A DNA stretch of 64,000 nt from contig QCIF01000004.1 of NCBI GenBank assembly GCA_003216835.1, positions 1-64,000 of the forward strand, read 5' to 3'. The stretch comes from Prochlorococcus sp. AG-402-K10 (GTDB taxonomy: Bacteria > Cyanobacteriota > Cyanobacteriia > PCC-6307 > Cyanobiaceae). A program made the translations under genes and the position numbers. The notes under the pieces were generated by a model that had not been told where the DNA came from, ran no database searches, and saw only the letters and a list, made by a program, of their open reading frames with translations. Within the stretch, counting starts at the first letter, position 1. Each line of letters begins with the position of its first letter. Of the stretch, positions 63,082-63,888 are shown piece after piece.

Positions 63082-63189
63082 ATGACTCCTGAAGCAGAAA
63101 AGTTTAATGGTTGGGCAGCAATGCTCGGTTTCGTAGCAGCCGTTGGTGCATATGTAACAACTGGTCAAATCATTCCTGGCTGGTTCTAA
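63082..63189 (+). CDS. High-light-inducible protein, short form (35 aa)
   Basis: MTPEAEKFNGWAAMLGFVAAVGAYVTTGQIIPGWF. The longer ORF start at 62974 is not needed. Confidence 0.88.
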   Translation: MTPEAEKFNGWAAMLGFVAAVGAYVTTGQIIPGWF

Positions 63190-63329
63190 TGAAAAACACT
63201 AAAACTAAATTAGTTGAAAAAGAGAAAATTGTAGCTGAAAAACTAAATGGTAGATTTGCCATGATGGGTTTTCTTGCACTTGTTGGAGCATATGTAACAA
63301 CAGGTCAAATAATACCAGGATTTATCTAA
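63189..63329 (+). CDS. High-light-inducible protein (46 aa), translationally coupled to the previous hli
   Basis: TAATG overlap; ...AEKLNGRFAMMGFLALVGAYVTTGQIIPGFI. Confidence 0.9.
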   Translation: MKNTKTKLVEKEKIVAEKLNGRFAMMGFLALVGAYVTTGQIIPGFI

Positions 63330-63620: not shown

Positions 63621-63722
63621 ATGTCCAACATCGGTTTAGAATTAGTATTCTGGCTAATCTTCATAACATATCTTATAGCAAGACTTACACAAACCAAGAA
63701 AGGTTATAAACAACAATATTAA
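63621..63722 (+). CDS. Small single-TM protein (33 aa)
   Basis: GGAGGT upstream of ATG; MSNIGLELVFWLIFITYLIARLTQTKKGYKQQY. Confidence 0.6.
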   Translation: MSNIGLELVFWLIFITYLIARLTQTKKGYKQQY

Positions 63723-63738
63723 TTAAGGGTATATAATA

Positions 63739-63888
63739 ATGGCTTTAAATGATAAATTCATTATTCCAAATAACAATAAGCAAAACTTCAAAAATGATTT
63801 AGAAGCAAAATCTGTTTTAGAAAGTTATTGGGATGATGTATGCAAAAAGAATCCATCTAAGAAAGAATGTCTAGTTTATTGCGACTAG
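63739..63888 (+). CDS. Small protein with CP12-like C-terminal motif (49 aa)
   Basis: Manual translation ...KSVLESYWDDVCKKNPSKKECLVYCD. Confidence 0.6.
   Translation: MALNDKFIIPNNNKQNFKNDLEAKSVLESYWDDVCKKNPSKKECLVYCD

Follow-up and report, generated by a model that had tools for sequence, protein, structure and literature searches.

The mini-protein gene and its neighbours

The window analysed here is a stretch of 64,000 nucleotides, positions 1-64000 of contig C4 of a 1.53 Mb Prochlorococcus genome (G000). At 63739..63888 on the + strand it carries an open reading frame, from ATG to TAG (stop included), that is real and translates into a protein of 49 amino acids, MALNDKFIIPNNNKQNFKNDLEAKSVLESYWDDVCKKNPSKKECLVYCD, referred to below as the mini-protein. 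We found that this protein joins a variable N-terminal part to a CP12-type tail. The former, residues 1-28 (63739..63822, + strand), has no counterpart in CP12, as seen from pN/pS and hhalign, and no family match in Pfam or NCBIfam. The latter, residues 30-49 with the sequence YWDDVCKKNPSKKECLVYCD (63826..63885, + strand), is supported by homology to the CP12 C-terminus, by pN/pS and by invariant residues. It reads C-KK-NP-SKK-EC-L-VY-C-D, just as the first-pass annotation of this DNA had it, and its CP12-like character is backed by Pfam, PDB and profile matches. The Cys pair of the tail is C35-KKNPSKKE-C44 (C-x8-C with a central Pro), encoded on the + strand at 63841-63843 (Cys35) and 63868-63870 (Cys44), and the protein terminates with Y47-C48-D49-stop (Cys48 at 63880-63882, + strand), so that the tail lies at the extreme C-terminus and the final residue is acidic. 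These are three Cys within 49 residues, with none ahead of residue 35. An AlphaFold2 model has low confidence (pLDDT 59, pTM 0.25), and the helices that it places at residues 11-23 and 30-37 are unreliable at this pLDDT; the short variable N-terminus is probably disordered.

Two hli-type genes are found upstream on the same strand, at 63082..63189 (MTPEAEKFNGWAAMLGFVAAVGAYVTTGQIIPGWF) and 63189..63329 (MKNTKTKLVEKEKIVAEKLNGRFAMMGFLALVGAYVTTGQIIPGFI), which bears out the placement of the gene near hli genes in the first-pass annotation. Both were identified by a motif scan; the first has a sub-threshold match to Pfam Chloroa_b-bind (E 0.074), and the second matches the same model with E 0.00097 and 20.1 bits against a cut-off of 22.3. 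A 33-residue single-helix membrane protein without a Pfam match, MSNIGLELVFWLIFITYLIARLTQTKKGYKQQY, is encoded at 63621..63722 (+ strand), 16 bases upstream of the mini-protein gene, and is the probable operon partner of the mini-protein. The order of hli pair, 33-residue membrane protein and mini-protein gene is conserved at this locus. The membrane protein is upstream in all 11 query-type loci, with a gap of 16-24 bases in nine and of about 215 in two, and the hli pair is present within 1.3 kb upstream in nine of the 10 loci where it can be assessed, the exception being genome G061; the eleventh locus is left out of the hli count because its contig starts too close to tell. The same gene order is found in Prochlorococcus genome G015 (L045), and a second paralog in the host genome (C4:87735) also adjoins an hli cluster. 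A scan for promoters and terminators at the mini-protein locus gave sites no more frequent than in shuffles.

Small membrane proteins starting with M(S/T/N)N(I/L)GLE recur beside genes with a CP12-type tail, in hli clusters, in divergent orientation and on one viral contig (63621-63722 in the window; L049 3390, L050 5085, L051 3082, L078 1210, L080 1213 and viral contig L174 4562). In the longer ones among them, the C-terminus carries a Cys pair (FC-KS-S-PYC). Proteins of this type may be functional partners of the CP12-tail family.

Homology of the tail to CP12

Among 24,736 Pfam-A models, CP12 (PF02672) is the sole match of the mini-protein (E 0.0054), with an alignment that spans profile positions 47-69 of 70 and a score of 17.9 bits, which is below the gathering cut-off of 22.7. 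The same model is matched by 8 of 33 diverse relatives at E<=1, the best being the mini-protein of the window. NCBIfam gave no match for the mini-protein, its best PHROG is phrog_627, and of 177,635 PDB sequences it matches that of the CP12 peptide in 3b1j/3b1k alone (E 0.013). Furthermore, the DNA pattern for C-x2-N-P-x3-E-C-x2-Y has two sites in the 1.53 Mb genome, namely the canonical CP12 and the mini-protein, and the reversed control pattern has none.

Against a CP12 HMM built for this analysis, the mini-protein scores 21.6 bits. The best of 11,800 plain shuffles of family proteins reached 13.8 bits; for 11,800 shuffles with Cys and Pro fixed, the 99.9th percentile lay at 16.4 bits, with 23.0 as the highest single score. 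That such constrained shuffles now and then score as high as the mini-protein, that the common stretch is only about 20 residues long and that the Pfam score is under the cut-off would all fit convergence, in which a hairpin of the Cys-Pro-Cys kind, short and serving for instance as a metal or structural motif, would look like CP12 without common descent.

Three tests used a family profile made from the 33 diverse relatives, with no CP12 among them. Searched against the PDB, this profile finds CP12 chains as its top seven matches (E 2.3e-4 to 0.064), followed by an unrelated eighth (E 0.23). Compared by hhalign with a profile of CP12 sequences, it gives a probability of 94.4% (E 9e-8), in an alignment that runs through the last residue and takes in no more than the last 21-23 columns. 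We also ran it over 116 cyanobacterial genomes, where 55 matches at E<=0.01 lie outside the taxonomic family of the window; 49 of these 55 are Pfam CP12 loci, and of the remaining six the two that were read are CP12 too, so that CP12 accounts for at least 51 of the 55. Because a profile free of CP12 finds CP12 in the PDB, by hhalign and in genomes, and because intermediate forms exist, we conclude that the tail is almost certainly homologous to the CP12 C-terminus. The HMM similarity on which the first-pass annotation had staked its motif is therefore clear profile to profile and falls short only for the single sequence. Convergence is very improbable and is largely refuted by the sequence comparisons above: the family profile matches CP12 and almost nothing else in the PDB and in genomes, and graded intermediates exist. 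A metal site is also disfavoured, since conservation among the 33 relatives does not extend to the third Cys, and a site made of three Cys was rejected on this ground.

The mini-protein keeps N38, P39, E43, L45, V46 and Y47 of CP12, and the tail is all that it has of CP12. The N-terminal Cys pair, which docks PRK in CP12, is absent, and so is the AWD_VEE core; the missing middle had already been recognised in the first-pass annotation. That annotation had also singled out a change from Arg to Leu in the tail, a point that does not hold. The host genome encodes one canonical CP12, at C2:92478-92681, which ends FCEANPDEPECLVYDD and is likewise without the N-terminal Cys pair; cyanophage CP12 ends ECLVYED or ECLVYDD and the CP12 peptide of 3b1j ends ECLIYDD. 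Since all of these share the Leu, it is no departure from CP12. The true departure is Cys48, which replaces the penultimate acid of CP12 and is confined to the branch of the mini-protein and to phages. Elsewhere in the family, in Synechococcus and other Prochlorococcus, the residue before the last is, like that of CP12, mostly Asp or Glu (YDD, YED, YES).

A multi-copy family in hosts and phages

The mini-protein is not isolated but belongs to a multi-copy family that cyanophages carry too. We found relatives in 177 of 200 sampled Prochlorococcus genomes (E<=1), and the host genome holds five members, the mini-protein and four paralogs. With a stricter threshold of E<=0.01, 121 of 300 genomes of the taxonomic family, from 34 of 59 genera, have matches, at most 8 in any one genome; some of the weakest may be CP12 or other proteins. 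Most members are 44-75 residues long; their N-termini are unlike one another (MALND..., MKLTTPF..., MVTICSGFF...) and are joined to a common C-terminal tail, (Y/F)W-x3-C-x3-P-x4-C-x2-(Y/F)-x-(D/E). W31, C35, P39 and C44 are invariant across the 33 diverse members, in agreement with the Cys conservation that the first-pass annotation had expected for orthologs. Many paralogs have neither the invariant Asn of CP12 nor the Glu that precedes the second Cys, and their sequences indicate that not all of them can bind alike.

Selection is strong on the tail and weak elsewhere in the mini-protein. In nine query-type genes, pN/pS is 0.28 for the tail and 0.75 for residues 1-28, and in the four closest genes 0.19 and 0.75; a trio of very close genes has no such contrast (0.54 vs 0.57), all values being uncorrected proportions summed over non-independent pairs.

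In many Prochlorococcus genomes the main tail gene is followed, some 200-350 bases further downstream, by a member of a second group of paralogs, MKLQTQFTVP...C-x3-P-x4-C-L-V-C-C-(N/D), in which Cys takes the place of the tail Tyr (L062, L064-L067, L069-L074, L077, L078 and L080, and also G015:C1:1346707, L154). An MNLK-S-AIQDK gene has a CP12-like tail in its G015 copy (YWDNECELNPSNPHCLEYDD; L152 1501-1689), and a similar gene of the host, at about 90996-91160 of contig C4 (L039 8997-9161), ends without one; tails are thus gained or lost as modules. Elsewhere in the host genome, at C2:183085-184229 (L057, L058), there are two tail genes and, as a third MKL-type ORF, one that has no tail; of the two tail genes, one breaks off just short of the final residues. 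Their neighbours, named by eye, are an AlpA/excisionase-like ORF of 63 residues and a large Z1-type helicase/endonuclease-like ORF, which suggests a mobile or defence island.

On the phage side, IMG/VR holds 28 distinct full-length viral versions of the family. Phage P-TIM68 encodes a full-length member, AIR93482.1 (annotated as hypothetical), downstream of a heat-shock gene, and also a canonical CP12, AIR93425.1, in which HP stands where NP is expected (FCEMHPDEPECLVYDD), an intermediate form. A further intermediate is found in Prochlorococcus phage P-SSM2, where the last 24 residues of PSSM2_066 (AY939844.2 53636-53902, annotated as hypothetical) are a CP12 tail (E 9.8e-7, above the Pfam cut-off) on an unrelated body of 64 residues. 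Two other readings of the phage copies were rejected. A replacement of phage CP12 by the mini-protein is ruled out for P-TIM68, which carries both, and an N-terminal fusion to phage Hsp20, seen when tblastn placed MKLTTPF under hsp20 of P-SSM2, proved to be a separate short ORF that starts at the end of hsp20 and stops ahead of any tail. As a side result, we identify phrog_627, whose function PHROGs v4 gives as unknown, as the family of cyanophage CP12, given that a phage protein annotated as CP12 hits it at E 8.6e-44.

The mini-protein shares with CP12 (PF02672, including the Prochlorococcus and cyanophage forms) the C-terminal Cys pair eight residues apart, NP, EC, VY and the final Asp, the placing of this motif at the very end of the protein, and homology at the profile level across its last 21-23 residues. 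It differs in having neither the N-terminal Cys pair nor the AWD_VEE core, in its length (49 residues against about 72-75), in its unrelated N-terminus, in the Cys for the penultimate acid and in being multi-copy. CP12-like tails are known on the GapB subunit of plant GAPDH and on adenylate kinase 3 (PMC4436894, PMC9406205). Like these two and like PSSM2_066, the nearest parallel found in this analysis, the mini-protein carries the tail module alone at the C-terminus of another body. However, GapB and adenylate kinase 3 bear the tail on an enzyme on which it acts in cis, whereas the body of the mini-protein is 28 residues without a domain, so that any action would have to be in trans. The eight CP12 classes of Stanley et al. 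(2013) depend on which of the two Cys pairs a protein has and on whether it has the core (PMC3906501). With its C-terminal pair only, the mini-protein is nearest to the CP12-C types, as compared by the description in that review (PMC3906501), which describes no multi-copy tail-only family; a member was possibly counted in the original lists, for example as CP12-C(M). Our literature search, in which the Stanley classification was known through the review PMC3906501, returned no multi-copy tail-only family in host and phage.

GAPDH as a candidate target

Previous work has shown that CP12 uses its C-terminal Cys pair for docking to GapDH2 and its N-terminal pair for docking to PRK, and that in Synechocystis a CP12 devoid of the latter continues to regulate GapDH2 in vivo (PMC9623430). 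In GapB the tail alone suffices for redox closure: once oxidised, it shuts the active site by way of Arg77 and its own last Glu. The residue that does this in Chlamydomonas CP12 is the penultimate Glu, which contacts a GAPDH arginine (PMC4436894). Roles in CP12 docking have been assigned to Arg77, Ser188 and the S-loop Arg of GAPDH (PMC3728087). We detected a single GAPDH in the host (contig C3, L162), which retains SDRN (Arg77) and GDQR..SHRDLRRARA (Ser188 and S-loop Arg), the correspondence of these residues being mapped by eye.

On these comparisons GAPDH is probably the target of the mini-protein. We lean, somewhat less firmly, towards the mini-protein being a tail-only, redox-gated GAPDH ligand, unable to recruit PRK and maybe a competitor of CP12. 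The "decoy" of the first-pass annotation may apply in this last sense, and its alternative of a PRK ligand is unlikely, the N-terminal Cys pair that docks PRK (PMC9623430) being absent. Speaking against a GAPDH ligand is Cys48, which stands where CP12 has the penultimate acid; the last residue, Asp, is comparable to the last Glu of GapB. Further weak points are the many paralogs that have lost the CP12 Asn and Glu, the canonical CP12 that P-TIM68 retains, and the low pLDDT of the AlphaFold2 model.

In the mechanism that we propose, oxidising conditions would form a CP12-type disulfide between Cys35 and Cys44. This would give the tail a shape in which its final residues reach into the active site of the host Gap2-type GAPDH, presumably lowering its NADPH-dependent activity, and reduction by thioredoxin would release it. 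The mini-protein is without the N-terminal PRK-docking part, and for this reason no GAPDH-CP12-PRK complex is expected: it would cap GAPDH without building that complex, acting as a brake on GAPDH only, and at a sufficient level would compete with CP12.

The same observations could also be read as a tail of CP12 descent that has switched to a new partner, be it a different NAD(P)-dependent enzyme, the adjoining membrane protein or a light-stress complex, with the paralogs as adaptors for different targets. We regard this as somewhat unlikely. It would account for up to 8 paralogs per genome with N-termini unlike one another, for the loss of the CP12 Asn and Glu in most paralogs, for the M(S/T)N(I/L)GLE membrane protein that recurrently adjoins in several loci and for a P-TIM68 that carries CP12 and the mini-protein; that this phage keeps its canonical CP12 hints at a different or additional role of the mini-protein. 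It fits less well with a mini-protein that retains N38, P39, E43, L45, V46 and Y47, with a tail that remains extreme C-terminal in relatives that end YDD or YED as CP12 does, and with docking residues that are preserved in the host GAPDH.

For GAPDH regulation, the adjoining hli genes suggest use under light or redox stress, conditions under which the mini-protein would be expressed. Synechococcus elongatus without CP12 is sensitive to high light (PMC8309167), and for the mini-protein a high-light role is a tentative proposal. The hli neighbourhood would also suit a thiol buffer close to the photosystems: a small dithiol protein, present in abundance, that serves as redox sink or thioredoxin substrate and has inherited its likeness to CP12 but lost the contact with GAPDH. 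Three Cys per 49 residues and a downstream-type paralog ending C-x8-C-LVCC are in line with such a sink, but conservation extends past the Cys to W31, P39 and Y47 and shuffles with Cys and Pro fixed seldom attain the score of the mini-protein, which makes it quite unlikely.

If GAPDH is the target, the copies in phages would redirect carbon and NADPH to the same end as phage CP12, which is highly expressed during infection in the light (PMC5082946). Taken further, marine picocyanobacteria and their phages would possess and exchange an expanded repertoire of tail-only GAPDH regulators, by which carbon fixation is throttled without involvement of PRK, and in the host's branch the Cys at the tip, located at the point of entry of the CP12 tail into the active site of GAPDH, would be a second redox switch or form a mixed disulfide with the catalytic Cys. 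This extended scenario is speculative and, in our estimate, unlikely as a whole.

Current understanding makes CP12 the main small-protein switch of the Calvin-Benson cycle and sees in cyanophage CP12 a means by which phages halt carbon fixation. If tail-only proteins do bind GAPDH, Prochlorococcus would have several extra switches that current models miss, overlooked as the mini-protein scores under the Pfam cut-off and finds no match in NCBIfam, some of them beside light-stress genes and some in phages that also bear CP12. Under this hypothesis, the modelling of how host and phage control the use of NADPH would change.
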